A stretch of 38,334 nucleotides of DNA, taken from assembly GCF_030012175.1 (NCBI RefSeq), contig NZ_JASCXW010000018.1, positions 1-38,334 on the forward strand, given 5' to 3'. The stretch's first letter is position 1, and every line of letters begins with the position of its first letter. Positions 3,460-38,329 of the stretch are shown in pieces. This stretch comes from Peloplasma aerotolerans (GTDB lineage: Bacteria; Bacillota_I; Bacilli_A; Acholeplasmatales; Acholeplasmataceae). The notes beneath the pieces were generated by a model. It was not told the origin of the DNA, made no database searches, and was given only the letters and a program-made list of their open reading frames with translations. Made by a program: the position numbers and the translations under genes.

Positions 3460-6400
3460 TTAACTTAATTCATAGAAGCTAGATACTGCATTGAATGTCC
3501 ATAAATCACTACTTGTAATATTTGCTAAATTTGTAGTCCACCATGCATCATCTACTGTTGTAATGCTTGTATCAATGATATATTCAGCATCGACTACTTG
3601 TCTATTGAGTGTACCTACCACTGTGATATCTATCATGTAAATATTTGTTATATTTGCATTACGATCACCTGATACATGACCTACATTAGTGCTTGATGCA
3701 TTAATAGTTCCAGTGAAAACGACATCTGATAAATTCATTGTCATACCATCAACACTAGGTCTACCTAATATACCAGCGACATATTGTCCACCATTAACGG
3801 TTGCACTAATCACAACTCGATTTACATTAAGGATTAATGCTGCACCACCTTTGACTTCACCATATAAGCCACCAGAACGGTTAGCTGCATTGACTTCTAC
3901 ATTACGAATTTCAACATCACTAATTGTTATTGCTGCCCCATCAGTTAAACCAATGAGTCCACCAGCAGCTGCACCAGCATTAGTAATTGTTGTGTTTTGA
4001 ATCAATACATTTGATATTGTGATTTCAAATCCTGGTTTTGTGTAACCTAATAAACCACCAACACCATTTGAGTTGTTACCTGATACTGAAGAGTTGATAA
4101 CTTTAACATTATGTATATTAACATTGTTTCCATCAACTTCACCTACTAATGTACCTGCTCTACCAGTAGATATTATTTCTACATTATCAAGTGTAAGATT
4201 AGTTATGGTTGCTCCATTAACTCTACTGAATAAACCTAAACGGTCTCCACCATTTATGGTTAAATTCATAATAGACTTTCCATTTCCATCAAGTGTTCTT
4301 GTAAAATTATAATTGACTGGAGTCCAATTATAGCCAGTAAAATCTAAATCATTTTCTAAATAATATGCTGATTCAGTTCCACCTGTTGTTGCAATCGTAT
4401 AAAACTCTTCAATAGTTGTAATTGCTGTTCCAACTGGACCTTCATCTACAACTTCTTCCCATTTAGCATATAATGTGATATCTTCTGTAACGACATCTAC
4501 ATCAAAATCCCATAAGGTATCAAATGTTGCTTCTATAAACCAACCTTCAAATGTATAGCCAAATTTTGAAGGTTCCGCAGGTTCAGTTATCAATTCATTT
4601 TCTTCAACTTGAACTGGACTAACTGATGATCCACCATCAACATCAAATGTGACAGTATAATAAACCGCAGGTTCAACTGGATCCAATTCAGGAACTGTAT
4701 ATGCTAATTGATAGAACTCTTGAGCATTAATGCTCCATGAAGTGTGTTCACTTATAGCTGGTAAGTTTGTTTCCCACCATGTTTGATTTAAACCTGATAA
4801 ATCTTCTAGGTCATATGCTGGGTCATTTGCAACACCGATTGTTCCAATAACAGCATCAGCTAGATGAGTAAATACATCTGTAAATACTGGTGTTGTATTA
4901 TCGGCTGTACCTACACGGCCAAGTAATCCACTAGATTGTGATTGTGAACCGTTGTAAGTGATTTGTAGATCAACAAACATATTTGATGCAGTAAGTGAGC
5001 CTCTATTATAATAACCAACAAGTGCACCAGTTGCTCTACCAATGAGTTCTGAATTTTCAATAACGATACGATCTAATGTAACTACAGCTGCTATGTCATT
5101 AGTATAACCTAGGACAGCTCCAACACCAGAATCAGTATTATCATTAGCACTACTTGCTGTTGTGCCGTAAACATAGAAATCAGTAATATTAGTTTCTGCT
5201 AATACTTGACCTCCAAAGAACCCAACGTTCTTAGCTGTTGTTTCTAAAACTGTATCAACAATAACTATATGGTTAGCAGTAACTTTATTCGCTATTTGTC
5301 CAATTAAGCCACCAACGCCTTCATTTGCAGTACCGGTTGCTTTAGAGTTGATAATTGTAACATTTTCTAAAATTGCTGGATTGTTTTGTAATCTACCCGC
5401 AATAATACCGGTACGACCACCAGAATTAAGTACTTCTGTGTTGACGATGATTAAATCATAAATGGTTGCACCATCAATCATTTGGAAAATACCCATTCTT
5501 CCGGATCCAGTAATTGTGATATTTGAAACAACAAAACCATTACCATTTAATACGCCATTAAATGCAACACCATTTCCTGTTTGTGTCCATGGAACTCCAG
5601 TAAAGTCGATATCATTTTCTAAAATATAATGAGTACCACTTGTATCAATTGTCATTGCCATGAATTCTGAAGCTGTTGAAATTGATGTTGGGATAATTTC
5701 TTCCCACTTCGCAAATAATGTGATATCTTCAGTTACTGTATCAACATCAAAATCCCATAAGTTATCAAATGTTGCTTCTTTATACCAACCTTTAAATGTA
5801 TAACCATCTTTTGTTGGGTCTGCTGGTTTAGTCGCTAAACCATCTTCAGCAACAACTTGCATTTCAACACTTGTTCCACCATCAACATCAAATGTTACAT
5901 TGTATGTAACTTCAGGTATGATTTCCCATTTCGCATACAATGTAGTGTTTTGTGTAACAACATCAATATCAAAATTCCATAAGTTGTCGAATGTTGCTTC
6001 TTTATACCAACCTTCAAATGTATAACCATCTTTTGTTGGTTCTGCAGGTTCAGTAATCATAGAACCTTCATAAACACCTAATATGGGATCAACACTAGAA
6101 CCTTCATCAACATCAAATGTGACATCGTATGTAGGTAATGCTTCATATTTCCCATAAAGCGTGACATCTTGTGTTACAACGTATCCTTCTGAAAGCGGAA
6201 TTGTCATTTCACTATCTGTGAACCATCCAACAAAGTTGTATCCTTCAACAAGCGGTGCGCCGTAACTAAATGTTAAGCCTTCTCTAACTTGAATCACTTC
6301 TTGAGGTTGTGAAGCATTATAAATAAGTGTGACATCAAATGTAGGTCTAGCTGCGTCTTTATAGTTAGCTAAAGCATATGTGCTATTTGTATCAAATGTC

Positions 6401-9114
6401 CAAAGCGGATGATCAACAAATACCGGTAAGTTCGAGCTCCACCATGCTTGGTTTTCAGGTATTGCAATATTCGTTAAATTTTGAACTTGAGCATGCTCTA
6501 CTGTACCAGTCAGTGATCCAAAGATATGTGTTTGATCAAGATATGATGCTTCATCATTCACACGTCCGATTAAACCAGCATGTGTGCGATCAGGATGTGT
6601 AAATGCAACTTGAACGTATGCATGATTAATAGTTGCACTACCAGGTAAACGATTGTATCCAATTAAAGCTCCACCCATAACAGCATTAACTGTTGAACCG
6701 ACAATAACAACACGTTCAGCTTCAACAACTGAAGTTAATGAATCTCTAATATATCCTACAAATCCTCCAGCAGCTAAGTCTGTTCCGGTTGCTGTAGAAA
6801 TGACTGTAACATTATTAACGTAGATATCTTTTGCGTCTAGTAAGCCACCATCAACACGTCCAACAACGCCACCAACATTCTTTTGACCTGTTGCTTGTAC
6901 TGTTGAATCGATAATTGCTATATTACTAAGTTCTGTCTTGCGTGAAACTAAACCGATGACACCGCCAACACCATTAGAGTTTTCAGCAGTTACGGATGAA
7001 TTCATGATAACAATATTCATGACGACGGAATCATTATTTTCAACACGACCAACTAATACACCGCCCCGTTCAACAGAAGTTATGGTTGCATTGTCAATAA
7101 CTAAATCACGTACTGTCGCCCCGTTTAATCTAGGGAAAATACCTCCATAATTGCCACCTGTGCGGTTAATTGTAATATTGGATAAAGTATGACCATTACC
7201 ATAAATCTTGCCTCTAATCGAAGCATTATGTTCTGGGAATACTAAACCTGTAAAATCGAGATCTGCAACAATTGCAAAGCTTGTATTAATAACACCACTA
7301 CTATCTGGAGTCGTTAGTGTGATAAAGTCTTGTGCTGTTGCAATTTCAGTTACTGCCTCAAATATTAATGTATGAGAAACTATATTTGACTCACCAAATA
7401 AATCAACAACAAAATGTATAAATGTATTGTTTCCCACTTCTATATCTTCTATTAACGTTGAAATGCCTGTGATTTCAACAGACGTTCCTGCCATAATTGT
7501 TTCTACGGTTTCAGTTTCATTACTTGACAAGATATAATATAAATCTCCTTGTGGTTGAATGGTTGTAACAGTTATATCTGTTGTATTTTCTAAATATCCT
7601 ACAACTGTCGATACCACTTGAGTAATCTCATTAGGATCACCTACTGCATAAACAATAACCTCTTGTGTTACAACTTTATTATCTAATGGATTATCTAGGT
7701 TTGTAAATGTATATGTTACAACATAATCTCCCGCAACACTAGTGTCAACTGGATTATCAATTGTAAGTGTATAATCTATATCTAGTATAAGTTCTCTTTG
7801 TGTACCATATAGATTTCTAACAACTGGTGCATCCACAGTGAATGTACCATCTTCTTCAACTGATACTGATGGTCTAATACCAGTAACTTCACCAATTTCT
7901 ATAAGTTCAGTTGGTCTTGGCATTGCTTCTATGCGATTTGCTAAAATATTTGTTATGTAAGCAGGAGGTCTAAGTTCAGTCGTTGTTGAACTACCAGAAC
8001 GAATGAATAGACTTTGTAAACTGGTTGTACCTGTGAATTCGACTGGTCCTGGAGTCATACTCATAAGTTGTCCATTATCTTCATAATAGAAAACTTCAAG
8101 TGTTTTATCTGCCAAATTGACTTCTGCTCTTAATGTATACCACTTATTGACTTCGATGTCTGTCTTCATTAATGGTCCATTATCTGTACGATAGAATAAT
8201 GCAGCACCATCAACCCCAAATGCTACAACTGGAGATGATGAAGATGACTGAATATTAATCGGTGAACCATTTGATGTTGCAGTTTGCATCACATCAACTT
8301 CAATAATAACCAAATCATACGCATGTACAATAGGTGCTTCTATTTGCAACTCTAATAAAGCTTCAAGTTTTAATGCTTGAGAGCCACCAGGTATTGCTGC
8401 TGGTGCAGAATCAACAACAGTAAATATTGAGTTGCCGCTCTTACCAGAAACTGGTCCCCAAATCGTTGTTTGATCCAAAACATTGCCAAGCGGATAATTG
8501 AACGTTTCATTGATGATAGGTTCAGTTTCCTCTAGACTCGGTAATGCAATCACTGTTGCAGTAAATTCTTTTGTCCGTGTGACTGAGCCTTTTGATAGTG
8601 TTGCAGTAAGTGTTACAGTTTGATCGCCTTCCTCAAAAGTAGGTTGTGTAATCACACCATTGGCTGCAATGTATTCAGTCTTATCAATAACCCAACTGAT
8701 ATCTACACCTTGAACTGGATATGTTGTAGGTAATATCAAACGAGGTGAGCTATTTGTTAACGCAGATAAGTCTGGTAACGTTAGCCATGTATGAGTTGCA
8801 TCAACCGCTTCTTGATCTGTTGGACCAGAAGGCTCATTCCATTTTGCATACAATGTAATGTCTGCCACTACAACATCTGTTGCAAAATTCCACTGGTTGG
8901 TTAACTCGCTGTCTTTAAACCAACCTCCAAATTCATAATTTGCTCTTGTAGGTGCTGTAGGTGCTGTGATTGTTGAATCTTTTTCAACATCTGTAATCGC
9001 AGCAACAGCAGAACCTCCATTTGATTCAAATGTAACAGTATATGTTCTACTGCCACAAGCAACCAAAACGAAAATGAGCAATAATGCACTAAACGTACTT
9101 AATATTTTTCTCAT
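3460..9114 (-). CDS. Giant modular surface lipoprotein with InlB-type repeats and three beta-helix modules (1884 aa)
   Basis: The N-terminus is a lipoprotein signal with lipobox LVAC, so Cys20 is probably lipidated and the protein displayed outside the cell. Domains in order: InlB/Flg_new-type repeat (24-92), atrophied bacterial Ig-like domain (98-190), concanavalin-like jelly-roll (about 200-400), Ig-like region (400-585), beta-helix module 1 (588-917), three tandem InlB-type repeats (920-1141), beta-helix module 2 (1143-1478), a fifth InlB-type repeat (1485-1556) and beta-helix module 3 (1563-1884). The modules carry GLUG-like turns such as VGGLIG and each closes with WWxxNL followed by a Trp and Tyr tail. 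No enzyme motif or LPXTG anchor is seen. As last gene of a pectin-use operon it may bind plant polysaccharide or hold the lyases; this is inference. Ribosome site GGGAGG fits the start. Confidence 0.85.
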   Translation of the reverse strand: MRKILSTFSALLLIFVLVACGSRTYTVTFESNGGSAVAAITDVEKDSTITAPTAPTRANYEFGGWFKDSELTNQWNFATDVVVADITLYAKWNEPSGPTDQEAVDATHTWLTLPDLSALTNSSPRLILPTTYPVQGVDISWVIDKTEYIAANGVITQPTFEEGDQTVTLTATLSKGSVTRTKEFTATVIALPSLEETEPIINETFNYPLGNVLDQTTIWGPVSGKSGNSIFTVVDSAPAAIPGGSQALKLEALLELQIEAPIVHAYDLVIIEVDVMQTATSNGSPINIQSSSSSPVVAFGVDGAALFYRTDNGPLMKTDIEVNKWYTLRAEVNLADKTLEVFYYEDNGQLMSMTPGPVEFTGTTSLQSLFIRSGSSTTTELRPPAYITNILANRIEAMPRPTELIEIGEVTGIRPSVSVEEDGTFTVDAPVVRNLYGTQRELILDIDYTLTIDNPVDTSVAGDYVVTYTFTNLDNPLDNKVVTQEVIVYAVGDPNEITQVVSTVVGYLENTTDITVTTIQPQGDLYYILSSNETETVETIMAGTSVEITGISTLIEDIEVGNNTFIHFVVDLFGESNIVSHTLIFEAVTEIATAQDFITLTTPDSSGVINTSFAIVADLDFTGLVFPEHNASIRGKIYGNGHTLSNITINRTGGNYGGIFPRLNGATVRDLVIDNATITSVERGGVLVGRVENNDSVVMNIVIMNSSVTAENSNGVGGVIGLVSRKTELSNIAIIDSTVQATGQKNVGGVVGRVDGGLLDAKDIYVNNVTVISTATGTDLAAGGFVGYIRDSLTSVVEAERVVIVGSTVNAVMGGALIGYNRLPGSATINHAYVQVAFTHPDRTHAGLIGRVNDEASYLDQTHIFGSLTGTVEHAQVQNLTNIAIPENQAWWSSNLPVFVDHPLWTFDTNSTYALANYKDAARPTFDVTLIYNASQPQEVIQVREGLTFSYGAPLVEGYNFVGWFTDSEMTIPLSEGYVVTQDVTLYGKYEALPTYDVTFDVDEGSSVDPILGVYEGSMITEPAEPTKDGYTFEGWYKEATFDNLWNFDIDVVTQNTTLYAKWEIIPEVTYNVTFDVDGGTSVEMQVVAEDGLATKPADPTKDGYTFKGWYKEATFDNLWDFDVDTVTEDITLFAKWEEIIPTSISTASEFMAMTIDTSGTHYILENDIDFTGVPWTQTGNGVAFNGVLNGNGFVVSNITITGSGRMGIFQMIDGATIYDLIIVNTEVLNSGGRTGIIAGRLQNNPAILENVTIINSKATGTANEGVGGLIGQIANKVTANHIVIVDTVLETTAKNVGFFGGQVLAETNITDFYVYGTTASSANDNTDSGVGAVLGYTNDIAAVVTLDRIVIENSELIGRATGALVGYYNRGSLTASNMFVDLQITYNGSQSQSSGLLGRVGTADNTTPVFTDVFTHLADAVIGTIGVANDPAYDLEDLSGLNQTWWETNLPAISEHTSWSINAQEFYQLAYTVPELDPVEPAVYYTVTFDVDGGSSVSPVQVEENELITEPAEPSKFGYTFEGWFIEATFDTLWDFDVDVVTEDITLYAKWEEVVDEGPVGTAITTIEEFYTIATTGGTESAYYLENDLDFTGYNWTPVNYNFTRTLDGNGKSIMNLTINGGDRLGLFSRVNGATITNLTLDNVEIISTGRAGTLVGEVDGNNVNIHNVKVINSSVSGNNSNGVGGLLGYTKPGFEITISNVLIQNTTITNAGAAAGGLIGLTDGAAITISDVEIRNVEVNAANRSGGLYGEVKGGAALILNVNRVVISATVNGGQYVAGILGRPSVDGMTMNLSDVVFTGTINASSTNVGHVSGDRNANITNIYMIDITVVGTLNRQVVDAEYIIDTSITTVDDAWWTTNLANITSSDLWTFNAVSSFYELS
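4445..6345 (-). repeat. InlB/Flg_new-type repeats inside the giant surface protein
   Basis: Four copies of a repeat of about 74 codons lie here: three in tandem at about 6345-5692 and one alone at 4660-4445. They share the pattern VTFDVDxGxSV, GYTFEGW, ATFDxLW and TLYAKWE. The copies ending near 5760 and 5982 remain close at DNA level with an offset of 222 bases, pointing to fairly recent duplication. A fifth, more diverged copy sits at the N-terminus, near 9045-8838. Confidence 0.8.
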
Positions 9115-28281: not shown

Positions 28282-28310
28282 AAATAAGAAAAACAGGATT
28301 TCTCCTGTTT
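28282..28310 (-). terminator. Terminator of the diguanylate cyclase gene
   Basis: The 8-bp stem AAACAGGA/TCCTGTTT (28291-28298 with 28303-28310, loop TTTC) is followed on the minus strand by TTCTTATTTATAA. It overlaps the stop codon of the GGDEF gene. Confidence 0.65.
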
Positions 28311-29451
28311 AAATTGATACGCTTAAATTTTGTTTAGATTTTGCCTTATCTTCATACATCTTACGATCTAAACTGTACAAGAAATTTTCCATGGATTCAT
28401 AATACTTATCATGATATATGCCATATCCCATTGAAATGCTTAAACAGTAATCATGAACTGCTTTTTTATTGTAATCAGCGAGGTTTTTTTCAATTCTATT
28501 AATGATTTCGAATAACTTATCTTCTTTATCTATTTGCATAATAACACAAAACTCATCGCCACCAATACGTGCAATAAAATCATTTTTCCTAACACTTTTC
28601 GTTAAAATTCTGCCTAACTCAATCAAAGCTTTATCTCCAGCTTGATGACTCATATCATCATTGATGGATTTGAAATTGTTGATATCAATCAAAATAGCAC
28701 CAATCGTTTTTTTAATATTTTTATTGTTTTCGATATTATAGACTTGATACTCATATTCTCTTCTATTAAATACTCCAGTTAGCGAATCAGTATTGGTTAT
28801 TTTTGACTGTATATAAATATAAATAACTAAAATAGATAATGTCATCGACGGCCATAAGACTCGTAATTGAGGTTCAAACAATTGAACTGCAACAGCCAAT
28901 ATTAGAGGCACCGGGAAAAAGAGTAAGGCCTTAAAATCTGATATGGGGATATATTTTTGATTGAATACAATGTAGCCCATAGAAAAAGCAAATACACTAA
29001 CATTAAAAACAATTAATGGTATAAGCATTTCGCCACGTTGATGAAAGCCATTAGCATCTACATAGAAAAAATAGCCTCGGTTAAAACTTAAGACCAGCAA
29101 TACTAGATGAACAATCAATATCGGCCCAAAAATAACACAAATGCTTTTAATATTTTTCAATCTTTTGTTAATGCGATGATCAACATAAAATAACCAAGTA
29201 ACCAAGATTGATAAGGCTACAATGAAATAAATAGTTAGTGCAGATAATAAGACATACCTACCAAGACTTGTTGCACTTCCATTAAATTGTACAATCAAAA
29301 TATCACTAATTAATACAGCAACATTAAACCAAAGCAATGAAAAAAAGTAACGATTGCTATAATGAGATGCTTTCGTATGTTTTCTAAGACTGAAGTAAAT
29401 AATGATTAAAATGATAATAGAAATGATGTTTGTTTGACTTAACTGAATCAT
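28309..29451 (-). CDS. Membrane-bound diguanylate cyclase (GGDEF protein)
   Basis: It should make cyclic di-GMP from two GTP. The N-terminal half (residues 6-215) has about seven membrane segments and no recognised sensor domain. The catalytic domain follows: DSLTGVFNRR at 222, IDINNFKSIND near 255 and intact GGDEF at 297-301. The inhibitory I-site RxxD (RKND, 288-291) is also present five residues before GGDEF, so the enzyme is expected to be active and subject to product inhibition. There is no EAL or HD-GYP partner in the window. A weak AGGGG ribosome site precedes the ATG. It lies downstream of the photolyase on the same strand with a 173-base AT-rich gap, in which I see no clear promoter. 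Confidence 0.9.
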   Translation of the reverse strand: MIQLSQTNIISIIILIIIYFSLRKHTKASHYSNRYFFSLLWFNVAVLISDILIVQFNGSATSLGRYVLLSALTIYFIVALSILVTWLFYVDHRINKRLKNIKSICVIFGPILIVHLVLLVLSFNRGYFFYVDANGFHQRGEMLIPLIVFNVSVFAFSMGYIVFNQKYIPISDFKALLFFPVPLILAVAVQLFEPQLRVLWPSMTLSILVIYIYIQSKITNTDSLTGVFNRREYEYQVYNIENNKNIKKTIGAILIDINNFKSINDDMSHQAGDKALIELGRILTKSVRKNDFIARIGGDEFCVIMQIDKEDKLFEIINRIEKNLADYNKKAVHDYCLSISMGYGIYHDKYYESMENFLYSLDRKMYEDKAKSKQNLSVSI

Positions 29452-29624: not shown

Positions 29625-31025
29625 TTATTTGGCAGTTGCCAACTTTTTCTTTTCGCTCACATCATCAACATACTTTTGGATGTTAAATTTTCTTTCTAGT
29701 CCTTTATCATTCATGTATCTTAACTTCCCAAATACTGATCTTTCAGTCCATGCACGATCATGCTTGCCAAAACACCATGCAACACCTGCATAGCTGTTTG
29801 GATCTCTTCCATCTATAAAATACTTATTGTTCAAGTATATAATATAATCATATGCTGATTGATAATTTGGTGTCCATTCGATGATTTTCTTTGCCCAATA
29901 CATTCGCATATAATTGTGCATATATCCTGTATACGCCATTTCATCCATTGCTGCATTAAAATAATGATCATGTGTTTTACTATTTTCAAGTTGTTCTAAA
30001 CTATACAAGTATTCCCTAAAATCGTTTTCATGTTCTTTCATTGTAAAGTAAGCCCATGGCTCTGTCATTTCATCAAAATGATCATATCCTTGATTATAGT
30101 AGACAAAATTAAAAGCTAGTTCTCTTCTAACTAGCAATTGCTCAATAAAAGCATCAAAAGCTTTGCCATCTATATTTCCGTACTCTAACTCTAAAAACAT
30201 TCTGTCTAGTATTTCTAGTGCTGATATTTGTCCGAAGTGTAAATACATCGAAAGTTTCGATGTATAATCATTACTTGGATCGTTGCTTTCCAAATAATGA
30301 TTAGCCTTATCTTGAATGAACGTAAAAACCATTTTTGAAGCCTCAACATAACCACCATGATAAAAAATGCTTAAAGATACACTTTGATTCAAGTTAAGCT
30401 TCTTAATCGTTAACGCTAAATCTGATAAATCATCATCACCTTCTAACTTTAGTTTGGTTTGATTTTTTATACTACTTATTCTATTAAAGTCTCTAAACTC
30501 CAAGTATAACCTCTTAATTTTAGGTCTTAATGTATATGCTCCATATTCAGCTTTATCAGATGCAATATGAACAGGAACAATTAAGTCAGTGTCAACAATA
30601 TCTATATGAATGTCTAAATGATGTATTTTAACATACTCAATAACACTTTGTCTCCATTGTCTTTGGAGTTTTAAGTATCCTTGATCCATAATAAGTGCTT
30701 CAGCATCTTCTAAATAAGGTTTGATACCTTCTTCAGGTGATTCCAATCTTAAAACAAACGAAATATGAAATTTAACCAAAATATCTTTGACTTCCCTTAA
30801 TCCCTCTAACATAAACTGATAATGTCTTTGATTGGCTTCTGGATAGTTTGCTGTTAATCCAAAGTAAACCAATAACGGCAAATCATGATGATTCGCGAGT
30901 TGAATAGCATGCTCAAGAGCATGGTTATAGTGGACGCGTTGTGATTGTTGCATCCAATAAACGACATAACTTTTCTTGTGACCAGATTCTTTTTCTCTCA
31001 CGCGGATGATTCGTTTTTTATTCAT
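29625..31025 (-). CDS. phr: Class II CPD DNA photolyase
   Basis: It repairs UV-made cyclobutane pyrimidine dimers using FADH- and light. The N-terminal alpha/beta domain carries YNHALEHAIQLA at 33-44. The C-terminal FAD domain shows class II signatures: YTSKLSMYLHFGQIS (254-268), LLVRRELAFNFVYYN (297-311), YTGYMHNYMRMYWAKK (365-380) and the closing WCFGKHDRAWTERSVFGK (417-434). The 466-residue length is normal. Trp377 and Trp384 match the Trp pair seven residues apart in archaeal class II enzymes. The third relay Trp, normally in DPLWNAA, is replaced here by Phe356 (DHYFNAA). The gene is divergent from the heliorhodopsin gene across a 176-base region with mirrored promoters. A weak GAGGAG ribosome site precedes the ATG. 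Confidence 0.92.
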   Translation of the reverse strand: MNKKRIIRVREKESGHKKSYVVYWMQQSQRVHYNHALEHAIQLANHHDLPLLVYFGLTANYPEANQRHYQFMLEGLREVKDILVKFHISFVLRLESPEEGIKPYLEDAEALIMDQGYLKLQRQWRQSVIEYVKIHHLDIHIDIVDTDLIVPVHIASDKAEYGAYTLRPKIKRLYLEFRDFNRISSIKNQTKLKLEGDDDLSDLALTIKKLNLNQSVSLSIFYHGGYVEASKMVFTFIQDKANHYLESNDPSNDYTSKLSMYLHFGQISALEILDRMFLELEYGNIDGKAFDAFIEQLLVRRELAFNFVYYNQGYDHFDEMTEPWAYFTMKEHENDFREYLYSLEQLENSKTHDHYFNAAMDEMAYTGYMHNYMRMYWAKKIIEWTPNYQSAYDYIIYLNNKYFIDGRDPNSYAGVAWCFGKHDRAWTERSVFGKLRYMNDKGLERKFNIQKYVDDVSEKKKLATAK

Positions 31026-31077
31026 AAACTCCTCGTTTTTGTAAAAGTATTTTTATTTGCAAAATGTTTATACACAA

Positions 31078-31105
31078 ATTATAACATCTTTAGCAAAATC
31101 AGACA
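31078..31105 (-). promoter_or_regulatory. Photolyase promoter
   Basis: The minus strand has the extended -10 TGTTATAAT (31086-31078) and a weak -35 TGTCTG (31105-31100) at 16 bases. It points away from the heliorhodopsin promoter, whose -10 box is the same nonamer. Confidence 0.6.
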
Positions 31106-31134
31106 TTTAATATTACAAAAAATGTTAGTGCATA

Positions 31135-31166
31135 TTGATACTCAACAATTCAATATATGTTATAAT
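31135..31166 (+). promoter_or_regulatory. Heliorhodopsin promoter
   Basis: The extended -10 TGTTATAAT lies at 31158-31166, 35 bases before the ATG. TTGATA (31135-31140) resembles a -35 but the spacer would be 20 bases, so recognition probably relies on the extended -10. Confidence 0.6.
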
Positions 31167-31201
31167 TAAACTAATCTTAAATAAGAAAAGGGGAATTTTA
31201 T

Positions 31202-31999
31202 ATGACAAATAATGAAACATTACTTAAACTAAAGAAATTTAACATGTTGATGGGTGGACTGCATTTAGTCCAAGGGATTTTGATGCTATTTTTAGCAACA
31301 TCTGTTATCCAAAATATTGCCGAGTTTAAACCAACAATTACACAATTTTACTTAACTTACAATCCAATGACACAATCGCTTGAAGTCGCAAGCCGTACAT
31401 TGTTCGATTTACCTTTTGGTATCTTTGTTGCTTTATTTTTATTAATATCAGCTGGAGCACATGCATTAATTTCATTTCCAAAAAAATTAAATGCTGTCTA
31501 CAATAAAGATTTAGAACAAGGTATTAATAAATTCAGATGGTTTGAATATGCGCTAAGTTCATCAGTTATGATCGTATTAATCGCAACTCTATTTGGAATC
31601 TACGACATTGCATCATTAATCTTAATTTTTGCAGTTAATGCAAGTATGAACTTATTCGGTCTTGTTATGGAGCAATTAAATGCGAAACGCGGAAATAACG
31701 AAAAAGTTATTTGGGGTCCATTTATTTGGGGTTCTATTGCAGGTATCGCACCATGGATTGCAATATTGATTTATATGTTTGGTACAGGTAATTTTGATAT
31801 GGTACCATGGTTTGTTTGGGCAATTGTGGGAACATATTTTGTTGCATTCAATACATTCCCAGTAAATATGATTCTTCAATATAAAAAAATTGGTAAGTGG
31901 AAGAACTATTTATATGGAGAGCGCACTTATATCGTATTAAGCTTAGTAGCTAAATCAATTTTAGCTTGGTTAGTTCTTTTTGGAGCAATGCAACCATAA
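31202..31999 (+). CDS. Heliorhodopsin
   Basis: This is a seven-helix retinal protein of the heliorhodopsin family, which sits in the membrane with its N-terminus inside, opposite to type 1 rhodopsins. The retinal lysine is Lys251 in LSLVAKSILAW, and the counterion Glu115 is in RWFEYALSSSVMIVLIA; both blocks closely match HeR-48C12 as I remember it. His21 (GGLHLVQ), His87 (GAHALIS) and Ser247, equivalent to important residues near the chromophore, are also kept. Length 265 is complete. It is not fused to another domain. A class II photolyase gene lies divergently upstream and a tocopherol-cyclase-like gene 43 bases downstream. No retinal or carotenoid synthesis gene is in the window. Heliorhodopsins do not pump ions efficiently; signalling or regulation of a partner protein is proposed in the literature. 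Confidence 0.95.
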   Translation: MTNNETLLKLKKFNMLMGGLHLVQGILMLFLATSVIQNIAEFKPTITQFYLTYNPMTQSLEVASRTLFDLPFGIFVALFLLISAGAHALISFPKKLNAVYNKDLEQGINKFRWFEYALSSSVMIVLIATLFGIYDIASLILIFAVNASMNLFGLVMEQLNAKRGNNEKVIWGPFIWGSIAGIAPWIAILIYMFGTGNFDMVPWFVWAIVGTYFVAFNTFPVNMILQYKKIGKWKNYLYGERTYIVLSLVAKSILAWLVLFGAMQP

Positions 32000-32004
32000 A
32001 AGTT

Positions 32005-32029
32005 AAAAAGCTAGTCAACTAGCTTTTTT
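32005..32029 (+). terminator. Terminator between heliorhodopsin and the tocopherol-cyclase-like gene
   Basis: A perfect 10-bp stem AAAAAGCTAG/CTAGCTTTTT (32005-32014 with 32019-32028, loop TCAA) ends in a T run. It lies only 14 bases before the next start codon, so that gene would be expressed by partial read-through or from a promoter inside the heliorhodopsin gene. Confidence 0.8.
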
Positions 32030-32042
32030 AATAGGAGTTTGT

Positions 32043-33014
32043 ATGTGTTTTAAGAAACTCATTCATCCTGAGTATTTTCAAGGAGAGAAAAAGAAAAATA
32101 GATATTTCGAAGGTTGGTACTATAAACTCGTTAGTAAAGATGACTTATATACACTAGCTTTCATTCCAGGCGTGAGCATCAATGAAATTGATCCTCATGC
32201 TTTTATCCAAGTCTTTTTATCTAAAAACGATCCTCGAAAAACAAAATTGAGTAGCCATTATTTAAGATTTGATTTGGATGCTTTTGATTATGGAAATAAA
32301 GAGTTTTGGATTCGAATCGATAAGAACTACTTCTCAAAAGAGAAAATATTCATTGATATGAAAAACGATAAAATGAGTATTATAGGTACACTTAAATTAT
32401 CTGGTTTGACGCCTTTGAAGAAAAATATGTTTTCTCCTAATATTATGGGCATATTTGGTTATTTAAGCTTTATGGAATGTTACCATGGCGTTATCAGTAT
32501 GACACATCAGTTAGATGGAGCATTTAAGATTAACGATGAAATCATATCTTTTGAAAGTAGCAAAGGTTATATTGAAAAAGACTGGGGTAGATCATTTCCG
32601 AGATCTTATGTTTGGATACAATCCAATCATTTTAAAAATCCAGAAACATCACTTATGTTTTCATATGCAGATATTCCGTTTATTGGGTTTTATTTTAAAG
32701 GTTTAATTGCCAACTTAATTTATGAAGGCAAAGAGTATAGGTTTGCTACATACAATTTTACAAAAGTACAAAAAGAAGAAATAAAGGATAACTATGTCTT
32801 CTATAAATTAATCAAAGGTAAATACCGTCTTGAGATCGAAGCTTTATCAACTTCTCAAATTGGATTAGCATCTCCAAAAGATGGTATGATGACAGATCAA
32901 ATTAAAGAGGGACTATCTGGTCATGTTAATGTAAGGTTATACATTAAAAATAAACTCATTTATGAAGATATTGGTAAACATGCAGGAATCGAAGTCATGA
33001 AACAAGTTGAATAA
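32043..33014 (+). CDS. Tocopherol cyclase-like protein (323 aa)
   Basis: The protein resembles the tocopherol cyclase family (Pfam PF14249; plant VTE1), a lipocalin-like fold related to CrtC carotenoid hydratases. Supporting motifs are NRYFEGWYYKLV at residues 20-31, near the N-terminus, and the strong block GYIEKDWGRSFP followed by YVWIQSNHF (about 177-200). Plant members close the chromanol ring on a prenylated quinol, while bacterial relatives are mostly uncharacterised. No signal peptide or membrane helix is seen, so it is probably cytoplasmic or peripheral. The start has an AGGAG ribosome site, and an intrinsic terminator separates it from heliorhodopsin. A role with retinal, a carotenoid or another prenyl lipid is an inference from family and neighbours. 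Confidence 0.75.
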   Translation: MCFKKLIHPEYFQGEKKKNRYFEGWYYKLVSKDDLYTLAFIPGVSINEIDPHAFIQVFLSKNDPRKTKLSSHYLRFDLDAFDYGNKEFWIRIDKNYFSKEKIFIDMKNDKMSIIGTLKLSGLTPLKKNMFSPNIMGIFGYLSFMECYHGVISMTHQLDGAFKINDEIISFESSKGYIEKDWGRSFPRSYVWIQSNHFKNPETSLMFSYADIPFIGFYFKGLIANLIYEGKEYRFATYNFTKVQKEEIKDNYVFYKLIKGKYRLEIEALSTSQIGLASPKDGMMTDQIKEGLSGHVNVRLYIKNKLIYEDIGKHAGIEVMKQVE

Positions 33015-33022
33015 TCCAAAAG

Positions 33023-33046
33023 AAAAAGCTCAAGTGAGCTTTTTTT
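33023..33046. terminator. Bidirectional terminator between the tocopherol-cyclase-like gene and arcC
   Basis: Stem AAAAAGCTC/GAGCTTTTT (33023-33031 with 33036-33044, loop AAGT) has T runs on both strands (33040-33046 on plus; TTTTTCTTTT on minus). The genes converge here and the arcC stop overlaps its edge. Confidence 0.8.
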
Positions 33047-33962
33047 ATGCAATAATGATTGTTCCACTTTTTTGTTCTAAAGCTTCTTTGGCTTGATCTA
33101 GTGATGCAATAATTGAAGGTCTTCCTGTTGCTTTAGTAAAAGCCATACACGCCTCAATCTTAGGCAACATAGAACCTTTTTTGAAATGACCTTTCTTTAA
33201 GTAATCTTCAAGTTCAGCTATGGAAACTTTTTTTAATGCTTTTTGATGAGGTGTGTTGAAATCAAGATACACATACTCAACTGCGGTTAAAATAATCAGT
33301 TCATCTGCTTCTGTTATTTCAGCCATTTTCGCACTTGCATGATCTTTATCAATAACAGCATCAACACCTATTAATTCATTATCTTGACTGATTACTGGGA
33401 TACCCCCACCACCTGCAGCAATCACGATATGTTTATCCTTAAGTAAAGCCTTAATACTTTCTTTTTCAATAATGTCTAATGGTTTCGGGCTTGCTACAAC
33501 GCGTCTATATCCTCTACCAGAGTCTTCAACCATTGTATATCCTTGTTCCTTAGATAATTGATCTGCCTCTACTTTACTATAAAAGCTTCCAATAGGTTTA
33601 CTTGGATCTTTGAATGCTTGATCGTTGGCATCAACTAAGACTTGAGAAACAATGGTTGTAATCGGACGTTCATGGTTTTCAAGCTTCATTTTATTATATA
33701 TTGCATTTTGAATATGATAACCTATATAACCTTGGCTCATAGCTCCACATTCTGCAAAAGGCATTAAAGGTGTTGATTTAGACTCATTAAATGCTAAATT
33801 AATCATCCCAACTTGAGGACCATTTCCGTGAACGATAATAATATCATGATCATCTTCAATTAATGGAAAAATAGCTTTAGCTACATCTTTTAGTAATTGT
33901 TTTTGCTCGTTTGCATTATTCCCTAATGCATTCCCACCAAGTGATATAACATACCTAGACAT
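33045..33962 (-). CDS. arcC: Carbamate kinase
   Basis: It transfers phosphate from carbamoyl phosphate to ADP, the ATP-yielding last step of the arginine deiminase pathway. The amino-acid-kinase fold is shown by ISLGGNALG at the N-terminus, HGNGPQVG near residue 45, [13 protein letters not shown] near 150 and AAGGGGIPV near 192. I choose the ATG at 33962 (305 residues), which overlaps the end of arcB by eight bases; a GTG three codons upstream is less likely. It is the last gene of the operon before the terminator. Confidence 0.95.
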
Positions 33963-34974
33963 AAAGATCACTCAGTGTCGCAAGCATAACTGCCTTAATG
34001 GTGTGCAAACGATTTTCTGCTTCTTCAAACACGACACTTTGTGGTGACTCCAAAACTGCATCAGTAACTTCTAATTCTCCACGTTTTACGGCTTCAAACA
34101 TTTGTCCAAAATCATGTGCAATTTGGGCACCCATTTCAGTATCTATGCCATGAAAAGCAGGTAGACAATGCATGAAAATCGCTTCAGCCTTAGCATTGCT
34201 CATCACTTTTGAGTTTACCTGATATGGATGTAAATCTTGAATTCTTGCGTACCATACATCCTTAGGTTCACCCATAGAAACCCAAACATCAGTATATATA
34301 ACATCTGCGTCTTTAGAACCTTTCATTGCATCTTCAGTGAATTGCAATGTTGCACCAGTTTCTTTTGCTATGGTTTGACATATATCGATTAACTCTTGAT
34401 TTGGCCATAATGCTTTTGGTGCAACAGCTGTAAAATGCATGCCCATTTTCGCACAACCAATCATTAATGAATTCCCCATATTGTTTCTTGCATCTCCAAA
34501 ATATGAAAACTTAATATCTTTAAGTGCTCCAAATTTTTCTTGAATTGTTAAGAAATCAGCAAGAATCTGTGTTGGGTGATATTGGTCAGTCAATCCATTC
34601 CAAACTGGAACTCCTGAATACTCAGCAAGCGTTTCTACATCATTTTGCAAATACCCTCTAAATTCAATACCATCATACATATGTCCTAAAACACGTGCAG
34701 TATCCTTGACGGATTCTTTTTTTCCCATTTGAGAACCGGTGGGTCCAATATAAGTGACACCCATACCTAAATCAAATCCAGCAACTTCAAAAGCACATCT
34801 TGTTCTTGTTGAATCTTTTTGAAACAACAAAACAATGTTTTTATCAGTTAAATGCTTATGACTGATGCCTTCTTTCTTTTCATGTTTTAGCCTTTGTGCT
34901 AAATCAATAAGATTTTGGATTTCTTCGGTTGTAAAATCCAATAATGTTAATAAATGTCTTCCCTTTAAGTTCAT
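33955..34974 (-). CDS. arcB: Ornithine carbamoyltransferase (catabolic)
   Basis: In this operon it would phosphorolyse citrulline to ornithine and carbamoyl phosphate. The carbamoyl phosphate loop is STRTRC (about residues 55-60), HPTQILAD lies near 133 and the HCLPAFH motif near 272. The start is set at the ATG 34974, seven bases from GGAG, giving 339 residues. The ATG three bases upstream is also possible, and the longer reading frame upstream overlaps arcA and lacks a ribosome site. The catabolic role rests on its place between arcA and arcC; the protein alone could equally be ArgF. Confidence 0.95.
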
Positions 34975-34985
34975 CATATTTCTCC

Positions 34986-36200
34986 CTATTCTATGTCTTC
35001 TCTTTCTAATGGCATACTCATACACCTTGGACCACCTCGTCCACGAGATAATTCACTTGACTCAATTTCTAATACTTCAATACCTGCATCTACCAACATT
35101 TGATTGGTCACATGATTACGATCATAAACAATGACCTTACCTGGTGCGATTGCTAATGTGTTTGCTCCGTCATTCCATTGTTCTCTAACACTCGTAATCA
35201 CATCTTTACCACCGCATCTAATCAGCTTAATCGGACGTTTAAGGTGCTTCTCTAAAACATCTTCTAATGATCCGACAACCTTAACCACATCAAATCTTGT
35301 ATCATTTTTAGTGATTTCAAAGACAGTAAGCTTGTTTTCAATGCCTGGATGGATGGTAAACATGCCGTAATCGATCTGTGTAAATACAGTATCTAAATGC
35401 ATAAATGCTCTACTTTTTGGAATATTAAAAGCTAGCACTGTTTCAAAATCTGTATTTTCTTTAAAAAGTTGTTCTGCAAAAAATTCAATGGCTCTTGGAT
35501 CTGTTCTATTTGATATCCCAATAGCAATAATATTTTTATTTAATACAAGAATATCTCCACCTTCTAATGGATATCTATTTAACCTATGATAATACTTAAT
35601 AGGTGGATTTTTATGAAAACGTGGGTGATATGTCAATATATACTCTGCAAATATGGTTTCTCTTTGTCTTGCATGAGTAAACATTTTTCCAATCGCTACA
35701 CCATGTCCTACACTTGAAAATGGATCTCTTTGGAACAAGATGTTAGGAATTGGATCTGTAAAGAATGGATATTCGTCTTCTAACATATCCATAATAGATT
35801 TATGCTTTCCAACAGTAATCTCATGTGTTCTTATACCTTCAATCATTTTGTGAATCATATCTGTTATAGATAGATTGACCAAATACTTATAAAGTGCGTT
35901 TTTAATCGTTTGAGATTTAATCTTAGATTCTTCAATAAATGCATTAATAAAGTTAGAAACAACCTCTGGATGAGCTTCCAAAGCCTCAGTCAACATATCT
36001 GTTAGATATAAGACTTCAACACCATGCGCTCTTAACGTGTTTGCAAATATATCATGTTCTTCTTGTGCAACTTTCAAGTATGGAATATCATCAAATAACA
36101 GTTTTTCTAAGACATCAGGTGTTAAATTTTCAAGTTCTTTACCTGGCCTGTGTAATAATACAGATTTGAGTTTACCGATTTCAGAGTGTACTTTAATCAT
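34986..36200 (-). CDS. arcA: Arginine deiminase
   Basis: It hydrolyses arginine to citrulline and ammonia. Family motifs include [14 protein letters not shown] near residue 157, [10 protein letters not shown] near 213, FMHLDTVFT near 265 and the catalytic cysteine in [12 protein letters not shown] near residue 393. The 404-residue length is typical. An AAAGGAGAT ribosome site precedes the ATG, which overlaps the end of the alanine racemase gene by eight bases. arcB follows after 11 bases. No ArcD antiporter is in the window; it may lie beyond the right edge or elsewhere. Confidence 0.96.
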
Positions 36201-37287
36201 TTTTTTTATCTCCTTTAATCATGATTCGTGGGACACGATATGATACTTGTGTTACCACTTCATAATTGATTGTATTTAAACGTTTGGCGATATCATCGAT
36301 TGAAACTAAATCACCAAACAGTATAGCCGTGTCGTTAACATGAACGGACTCATCTATTTTAACAAAGCACGCATCCATGCAAATGATACCAACAATTTTA
36401 TATTTCTTGTCATGGAATTGCACGTGACCAGTTTTATTTTTTCTAATCCATCCATCAGCATATCCAATAGGTAGAATCGCGATTCTTTCTTTCTCTGTAG
36501 CACAATAAGTTGCACCATAGCCTACACAATCACCTGGATTCAATTCTTTGACTTGGACAACTCTAGACTTCAAAGACATAACAGGTTTCAAGTTAGGTTT
36601 TTTCTCATCTAAAGATAAACCATAAAGTGATATGCCTAAGCGAACATGTGTTGTGAACTCTATTTTTGATTCATATTTAAAGGTTGATGATGAGTTTGAT
36701 ACATGTACCATGGGTGGAACCTTCTTAAGACTTGATAGTATCAAGCGCATTTGTTCCAATTGTTTTTGATAAAACATTTCATCATGATCAGCAGTAGCAA
36801 AATGCGTAAATATACCTTTTAAGTTAATATGTTTTTGCTTTTGAAGGTTTGAAACGACTTTTGAAATATTCTCAACACCTCTAAAACCGTATCTTGACAT
36901 TCCAGTATCCACCTTCAGGTGGCAAGTTATATGATGTCCAAGCTTTAAGACAGAATCATAGATATGTTCATCATAAACTGAAAGTTCAATGCGATTTAAT
37001 GAGCAAATCAAAATATCGCTTTCCATCACTGGACCAAGCATTAAAATATCTATATCATCAAAATGCGCTCTTATTTCCAATGCTTCTTCTAATAGTGAAA
37101 CAGCGCATAAACGAACACCTTGATCATATAAATGCTTCATGACCTCGATTGCTCCATGTCCATAAGCATTTGCTTTTATGACCGGAATAACTTTTTTAGT
37201 TAAATTTTGTTTTTGAGCTTCTTCAAAATTATGCCATAAATGATCTAGATTGACTTCTGCCCAAGTTGGTCGATAAATATTACTCAT
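36193..37287 (-). CDS. alr: Alanine racemase
   Basis: This PLP enzyme interconverts L- and D-alanine. The PLP lysine is in VIKANAYGHG near residue 39, with the HLKVDTGMSRYGF block near 127, RLGISLYG near 215 and the catalytic tyrosine loop GYGATY near 257. The start is set at 37287, seven bases after GGAG (364 residues). It lies between an ornithine racemase and arginine deiminase with eight-base overlaps on both sides. D-Ala usually feeds peptidoglycan, but placement in an arginine operon suggests a broader amino acid racemase role is possible. Confidence 0.9.
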   Translation of the reverse strand: MSNIYRPTWAEVNLDHLWHNFEEAQKQNLTKKVIPVIKANAYGHGAIEVMKHLYDQGVRLCAVSLLEEALEIRAHFDDIDILMLGPVMESDILICSLNRIELSVYDEHIYDSVLKLGHHITCHLKVDTGMSRYGFRGVENISKVVSNLQKQKHINLKGIFTHFATADHDEMFYQKQLEQMRLILSSLKKVPPMVHVSNSSSTFKYESKIEFTTHVRLGISLYGLSLDEKKPNLKPVMSLKSRVVQVKELNPGDCVGYGATYCATEKERIAILPIGYADGWIRKNKTGHVQFHDKKYKIVGIICMDACFVKIDESVHVNDTAILFGDLVSIDDIAKRLNTINYEVVTQVSYRVPRIMIKGDKKND

Positions 37288-38329
37288 AACTTTTCTCCAC
37301 ATATGGTGATGTCATTAACGATAGAATGCCACCATAAGTCATTTTAAATGTAATGGTATCTCCTAGTTGATAATCCAATTTAGATATTTGTACAATTAAA
37401 TGATCACTACTACATCCTAAAATAGCAACACCTTTTGGTGGTATTAAATCATGTGCATCAACATCTTGTTTGCCAATTGATAAAATTGCTCGTGTTGTTA
37501 CACCTCGATCTTCAAACTTAACAGGCTTTCCAAATGCATCCATACCCAAAACACCTTCAGGCATTGATGGTTTATCTTTAATCTCAATAATTTCAGCTTC
37601 TAATGTAAAGATATCATCAAACATGTAATACAGAGATTTACCATAAGCAGTTTCTCTACCTAAAACGAGTGCTTCACCAATTCTTAAGTTATTAATAAAC
37701 TTAGGGAGTTTTTGATTTAACGCTAAGAATAAGGAAGATGAGTTCCCACCACTTATTAAATTCAACTTAATGTTTAAGCGGCTTTCAATACTATTTTTTA
37801 TACTGTATAGTTTATCATAAGTTTGCTCTTCTGGGATAACCCCGCCATAACATGTTAAGTTTGTACCTATACCTTCAAGTCTAACATGTTTGAGTTGATA
37901 TATCTCTTCAACAACACTCATATAATCTTCTTTATAATAAATACCTTCTCGTAAATCTCCAATATCAAACATTAAAACAATTCCATGAACACAATCCATT
38001 TTTTCTGCAGATTGATTTAATTTTCGAATTGTACCAATCTCGGAGTTTAAAGATATGTTTGCATGCATAACAACATCATCTGTTTCAGATAACTTAGGTA
38101 TTCTTAATAGAACTCTTGGTTTGGTTGTCTTCATGTTTTGCAAATTTTGAATTCTTGAATCTGCAATATAATCAACATCGGATGCATTTAATACATTAAC
38201 GATATTTTGATCACCATGATAAACTTTTGAAACCGCCATAACAGTAATGTTACGTTCATGCAGCTCTTGAGTTAAGTGATTTACATTGTGTGCGTATTTC
38301 TTGAGATCCACATGAATCTTAGGCAACAT
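37280..38329 (-). CDS. orr: Ornithine racemase-like, alanine racemase superfamily (349 aa)
   Basis: This is a PLP-dependent racemase of the Clostridium ornithine racemase type (Orr) rather than a normal Alr. Visible landmarks are PKIHVDLKKYAHNV at the start, AVSKVYHGD (PLP lysine) near residue 34, DSRIQNLQ near 57, SLNSEIGTI near 92, GIGTNLTCYGG near 153, ISGGNSSSL near 193, NLRIGEALVLGRET near 215 and LGMDAFGKP near 262. Orr makes D-ornithine from L-ornithine, the product of arcB in the same operon. The ATG is five bases from the window edge, so its ribosome site and any upstream gene are not visible. The N-terminus matches relatives, so the gene is probably complete. It overlaps alr by eight bases. 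Confidence 0.82.
   Translation of the reverse strand: MLPKIHVDLKKYAHNVNHLTQELHERNITVMAVSKVYHGDQNIVNVLNASDVDYIADSRIQNLQNMKTTKPRVLLRIPKLSETDDVVMHANISLNSEIGTIRKLNQSAEKMDCVHGIVLMFDIGDLREGIYYKEDYMSVVEEIYQLKHVRLEGIGTNLTCYGGVIPEEQTYDKLYSIKNSIESRLNIKLNLISGGNSSSLFLALNQKLPKFINNLRIGEALVLGRETAYGKSLYYMFDDIFTLEAEIIEIKDKPSMPEGVLGMDAFGKPVKFEDRGVTTRAILSIGKQDVDAHDLIPPKGVAILGCSSDHLIVQISKLDYQLGDTITFKMTYGGILSLMTSPYVEKSYE

Follow-up and report, generated by a model that had tools for sequence, protein, structure and literature searches.

A heliorhodopsin paired with a tocopherol-cyclase-like gene in a candidate reduced photoprotection cluster of Peloplasma aerotolerans

The function of heliorhodopsin (HeR) is a long-standing open question. 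In Trichococcus, the heliorhodopsin TfHeR binds its photolyase through residues E97, R162 and K227 and raises its activity about threefold (PMC9769723), and the pairing of HeR and photolyase genes has already been published (PMC9769723; PMC11109279). In the Znf-HeR loci, carotenoid and DNA photolyase genes flank HeR; tocopherol cyclase is not mentioned in the paper describing them (PMC8612252). The locus considered here lies in a 38,334-nucleotide stretch of Peloplasma aerotolerans (contig NZ_JASCXW010000018.1, positions 1 to 38,334), hereafter called the window, and places HeR between a divergent photolyase gene, phr, and a downstream gene of the tocopherol-cyclase-like family PF14249, which is named tcl in this report. 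A literature search on tocopherol cyclase and heliorhodopsin, limited in its coverage of subscription papers, came upon no account of HeR and tcl as a pair, in line with the original prediction, made from the sequence alone, whose author knew of no description of such a pairing. Judged by its genes, the novelty would thus lie in the HeR-tcl unit within a photoprotection cluster and in its clade-specific candidate active site, HeR-photolyase pairs and the carotenoid/photolyase loci of Znf-HeR being known.

The locus is read here as a reduced photoprotection cluster of the Acholeplasmataceae, in which HeR would serve as a regulatory light sensor, while tcl, expressed below HeR, would encode an acid-base enzyme or carrier for a terminal isoprene; we put the chances of this reading at about even. 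Gene content, conservation, the absence of crt genes in the window lineage compared with close relatives and purifying selection were computed directly, and the functions of HeR and tcl were inferred. The coordinates, strands and families originally proposed for the three genes were all borne out by profile matches:

29625–31025, minus strand: phr, predicted class II cyclobutane pyrimidine dimer (CPD) photolyase, 466 amino acids (TIGR00591; PDB 8oet and 2xry; operon in relatives)
31202–31999, plus strand: HeR, 265 amino acids, with E115 at the counterion position and K251 as the predicted retinal lysine (PF18761, NF038020, PDB 6is6)
32043–33014, plus strand: tcl, PF14249 protein of 323 amino acids with a modelled AttH/CrtC-type fold and candidate catalytic residues H148, Y176, E178 and W191 (PF14249; model; fold matches)

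The main finding comes from the relatives' loci. In four of them, belonging to the same genus and family (L322, L336, L338, L340), phr is the last gene of an operon consisting of crtI, crtB, a gene for a 221-amino-acid protein, DUF92 and phr, which faces the HeR-tcl pair; the same layout is present in L324 with a broken HeR. The 221-amino-acid gene, DUF92 and phr are kept in L339, L341, L345 and L348, and only phr is left of the divergent operon in the window and several other relatives, while in genus g125 a shorter crtI-crtB-phr operon faces HeR-tcl. Since the relatives' crt-phr operon faces HeR-tcl, the window locus is regarded as an eroded carotenoid/photoprotection cluster, whose fuller, ancestral layout would have been crtI, crtB, a polyprenol-kinase-like gene, DUF92 and phr transcribed away from the HeR-tcl unit. 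On the tcl tree the crt state of the locus changes at least four times, albeit the starred branches force only one change. Of the originally proposed three-gene light-protection module, the conservation of the locus and the isoprenoid link of the third gene have been upheld, the link proving much stronger than the sequence alone could reveal: crtI, crtB and DUF92 occur in the relatives' locus, the closest HeR-free tcl genes, in two f2 genomes, are divergent from crtI-crtB(-DUF92) with no HeR adjoining, and tcl adjoins VTE5/VTE6-like genes in L181. The window locus resembles the Znf-HeR loci in combining HeR with photolyase and, in its relatives, carotenoid genes, but its HeR has a short N-terminus lacking the zinc-ribbon cysteines and no carotenoid genes are left in the window (PMC8612252).

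Two further observations concern these loci. Downstream of HeR-tcl in L320:9549-12376 (plus strand) and in related g125 loci come a second gene of the photolyase/cryptochrome type (PF00875/PF03441) and a photolyase-related gene of PF04244, so that a single HeR is surrounded by a large set of genes for light-linked repair and pigments. The 221-amino-acid protein and DUF92 usually travel with crtB (L338:11826-13295, L182:10548-12019, L181:7813-9269). The former is a membrane protein bearing an RK..HI motif. Searches brought no Pfam or PDB match for it and no relevant NCBIfam family, and we take it to be polyprenol-kinase-like by motif resemblance alone; together the two look like the plant pair of phytol kinase and phytyl-phosphate kinase (VTE5/VTE6), suggesting a role in prenol salvage.

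The PF14249 assignment of the third gene, as foreseen, was well above the gathering score (60.6 against 26.6 bits), the best-matching stretch being confined to the profile's C-terminal half, and PF14249 was matched by all 25 tcl relatives searched, none of which matched the CrtC profile (PF07143). In PDB, no sequence matched tcl. An AlphaFold2 model built from four sequences (pLDDT 78.5, pTM 0.80) matched the AttH protein NE1406, the fungal pericyclases CghA, Fsa2 and Phm7, kievitone hydratase and 25-phosphosteroid lyase, with VIA Z of 17–22 and most of the chain aligned. The values for CghA, Fsa2, kievitone hydratase and AttH were 19.8–21.8 over 257–289 residues, against less than 8 for unrelated folds. 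As modelled, tcl is a member of the two-barrel AttH/CrtC lipocalin-like fold group.

For CrtC itself, the authors took AttH as the template of their model; the enzyme requires H239, W241, Y266 and D268, the last being the proposed acid (PMC4717167). The likeness of tcl to CrtC consists of the common fold group, the crtI/crtB neighbours in relatives and the His-Tyr-acid candidates, which line up in a weak, not significant profile alignment placing H148, V150, Y176 and E178 of tcl at the four CrtC positions; unlike CrtC, tcl has no PF07143 match and has Glu where CrtC has its catalytic Asp. H148 and D180 are present in all 28 of the 28 members of the tcl clade linked to HeR or crt, whereas two unlinked clades have S/N and Q/T there, and Y176 and E178 are invariant throughout all clades compared. 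The model and these residues suggest that tcl might bind a terminal isoprene or act on it by acid catalysis: it would be a soluble enzyme or carrier with two barrels, belonging to the CrtC/tocopherol-cyclase fold group and binding the end isoprene unit of a polyene, which E178 as the acid, helped by H148 and Y176, might protonate, leading to hydration or cyclisation. A broader association of HeR with all PF14249 genes was discarded, just one clade being linked.

That tcl is a true tocopherol-type chromanol cyclase with a quinol antioxidant as its product is very improbable, although it passes the curated score of PF14249, the family of the tocopherol cyclase VTE1, and lies near VTE5/VTE6-like genes in some relatives. 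It differs from VTE1 in that the match is best over the C-terminal half; the missing PDB match and the lack of DUF92 in the window's genome also speak against a chromanol cyclase, and no sign of a tocopherol or other prenylquinone pathway turned up, albeit no search was aimed at the pathway genes. Moreover, the window organism is a non-photosynthetic mollicute relative.

All three genes are under purifying selection, that on tcl being as strong as that on HeR: dN/dS (ratio of nonsynonymous to synonymous substitution rates) between the window and L033 was 0.03 for both tcl and HeR and 0.08 for phr, with synonymous sites near saturation. Searches of the window's genome found neither phytoene synthase (PF00494) nor DUF92 nor an RPE65-type oxygenase, the controls of the RPE65 search having worked, while the BCD/Blh search was made without a positive control and shows nothing by itself. 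Because tcl is constrained in a genome without carotenoid synthesis, it must be doing something there. These results bear on the proposal that tcl belongs to the carotenoid pathway alone, hydrating, in the manner of CrtC, the acyclic carotenoid that crtB and crtI produce, with HeR a mere neighbour. The proposal accords with the fold and candidate residues, with the occurrence of crtI and crtB in the locus without a lycopene cyclase, and with the arrangement in L182 and L183, where tcl is divergent from crtI. We consider it improbable nevertheless, as tcl occurs without phytoene synthase in six genomes (G000, the window's own, G045, G027, G139, G170 and G117) and is constrained in the pairs tested, while the crtB-positive genomes lacking HeR (G147, G180, G143) lack tcl as well.

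In the photoprotection reading, the likely substrate of tcl where crt genes persist would be an acyclic carotenoid, while in the window's genome, which has no phytoene synthase, it would more likely be a scavenged carotenoid or retinoid, needed by HeR too. A narrower version, in which tcl captures the scavenged carotenoid or retinoid and hydrates it, cyclises it or delivers it to HeR as chromophore or antenna in bacteria without a known retinal-forming enzyme, seems to us rather unlikely. The locus also raises the question of the retinal source in cells without phytoene synthase and RPE65-type oxygenase.

The HeR protein scored 322 bits with PF18761, above the cut-off, and 299 bits with the equivalog NF038020 (cut-off 100); its closest solved structure is 6is6, and a comparison with phages gave no match. 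The counterion E115 and the SxxxK retinal-lysine motif (S247-K251) are near-invariant among the 128 HeRs compared; both residues named in the original prediction are exactly in place, and the protein is a candidate for binding retinal via K251. The photolyase reached 470 bits with TIGR00591, below the curated cut-off of 550, which no genome of the phylum sample (295 genomes) attained. Its best PDB matches, 8oet, 5o8e and 2xry (E down to 5e-92), are structures which we take to be class II CPD photolyases, and by sequence the window photolyase is assigned to class II. The pair is thus similar to that of Trichococcus in having such a gene near HeR, and the two HeRs belong to the same subfamily with about 80% identity. 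Of the photolyase-binding residues E97, R162 and K227 of TfHeR, two of the three are conserved (A98, R163 and K229 in the window HeR), albeit R163 and K229 equivalents are widespread among HeRs generally and the three positions vary widely over the 128 proteins. The window differs in that its photolyase is divergent and not in the same operon, in the Ala at the E97 equivalent and in the presence of tcl, and any interaction here would be putative. The expectation that HeR can stimulate a photolyase in another monoderm holds for TfHeR (PMC9769723). By analogy with this protein acting on its own photolyase, tuning of the window photolyase is plausible, and HeR might be the regulatory light sensor of the photoprotection response.

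The intergenic regions contain the following elements:

31026–31201, no strand: divergent promoter region between phr and HeR (sequence; by-eye comparison with relatives)
31078–31086, minus strand: extended −10 element TGTTATAAT toward phr (sequence; element also in L033)
31158–31166, plus strand: extended −10 element TGTTATAAT toward HeR (sequence; comparison by eye with relatives)
32005–32033, plus strand: intrinsic-terminator-like hairpin (32005–32028) and T-run between HeR and tcl (sequence; conserved in relatives)
32033–32037, plus strand: tcl ribosome-binding site AGGAG, directly after the hairpin and T-run (sequence)

The size of the 176-base region, originally described as a control region common to phr and HeR, was confirmed, but it holds two separate, outward-facing extended −10 sites and therefore represents shared space and not one proven common control. 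Similarly, tcl does start 43 bases downstream of HeR, but this does not amount to plain co-transcription, since the gap contains the terminator-like hairpin. The hairpin was present in 21 of the 21 distinct Acholeplasmataceae gaps examined with tcl 3' of HeR, with stems as different as GCTAGG, GACTAAG, GGCCGG and GCCAGG, among others, which argues that it is kept as a structure; it probably causes partial termination, leaving the tcl transcript well below that of HeR. A block at the HeR promoter, TGTTATAATnAAACTAATC, also precedes tcl in a locus without HeR (L175 of genome G170). There, in L175:6789-9342, HeR has been lost between phr and tcl and the block has stayed, now 5' of tcl; G170 carries a divergent HeR elsewhere in its genome.

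Co-occurrence was followed in a family sample of 88 genomes and in the phylum sample. In the family, HeR was present in 35 genomes, PF14249 in 33 and both in 30, i.e., PF14249 accompanied HeR in 30 of 35 genomes and occurred in 3 of the 53 without it. By coordinates the two genes are direct neighbours in about 24 genomes of the family (genera g1, g4, g5, g7 and g125), and the pair was also found, without the terminator, in one Clostridia contig (L063, 55% GC). Among the 24 HeR genomes of the phylum sample, 18 had PF14249 (3.1 expected) and 21 a class II photolyase (2.5 expected). Co-occurrence above chance across relatives was thus evident in the raw counts, which are inflated because the genomes are related, but lost significance once relatedness was allowed for.

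Several results weigh against the photoprotection reading. An rpoB tree of 29 genomes gave 3–5 independent contrasts, nearly all of them same-way or neutral; none of the tests reached significance, the phylogeny-aware ones being short of power. Much of the HeR-tcl adjacency is inherited synteny, with a feoB-feoA-GGDEF-phr left flank extending across genera. HeR exists without tcl in G402, G403 and G410, which means that tcl is not essential to HeR, and neither HeR nor crt is linked with the other PF14249 clades. Strict co-expression is disfavoured by the terminator, the hhalign comparison of tcl with CrtC was not significant (probability 0.2%), the Trp residues of CrtC are matched in tcl only in part, and no known retinal source was found in the window's genome by the phytoene synthase and RPE65 searches. 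Much of this would equally suit a tcl functionally unrelated to HeR, with a general membrane-lipid role and kept in place by the inherited order feoB-feoA-GGDEF-phr<>HeR-tcl; besides the conserved flank, the non-significant test and the HeR genes without tcl, it would account for the PF14249 genes lying away from HeR in many genomes, including plasmids of gut Clostridia. Yet we hold mere inheritance of gene order to be unlikely: HeR-tcl recurs in three independent settings, with tcl before HeR (L031), as a terminator-free pair (L063) and as a divergent HeR type with tcl and photolyases (g125); the right flanks vary while the pair persists; and the linked tcl genes form one clade with the diagnostic H148/D180.

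Under the photoprotection reading, HeR stays beside the same soluble, isoprenoid-enzyme-like gene while crt genes drop out, which makes the product of this gene a definite candidate partner and singles out residues for mutation; the relatives' loci thereby provide a clue, open to testing, as to the partners of heliorhodopsin.

Two relatives deserve mention for their HeR genes. Compared with the 93%-identical L031 (G100), locus L052 (G093) has lost most of tcl and the first 50 HeR codons in one deletion, and the remaining HeR carries stop codons; the joint loss, probably being a single deletion, was not counted for a functional link. The small genome G219 (L041, L046) has three genes for HeR, and a stretch of 4 kb holds two of these.

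One neighbouring gene is a possible extra part of the locus:

28309–29451, minus strand: GGDEF protein with a hydrophobic N-terminal half, adjoining phr (PF00990, 111 bits; synteny)

This diguanylate cyclase-like gene is kept beside phr in several genera, is unusual in a mollicute relative and is possibly a light-response part. Elsewhere in the window, positions 33045–38329 hold a single run of genes in which those of the arginine deiminase pathway (for carbamate kinase, a carbamoyltransferase and an arginine deiminase-like protein) are joined by an alanine racemase gene and an ornithine racemase-like gene, and positions 3460–9114 encode a probable surface protein of 1884 amino acids bearing repeats of the Listeria-Bacteroides type (TIGR02543).

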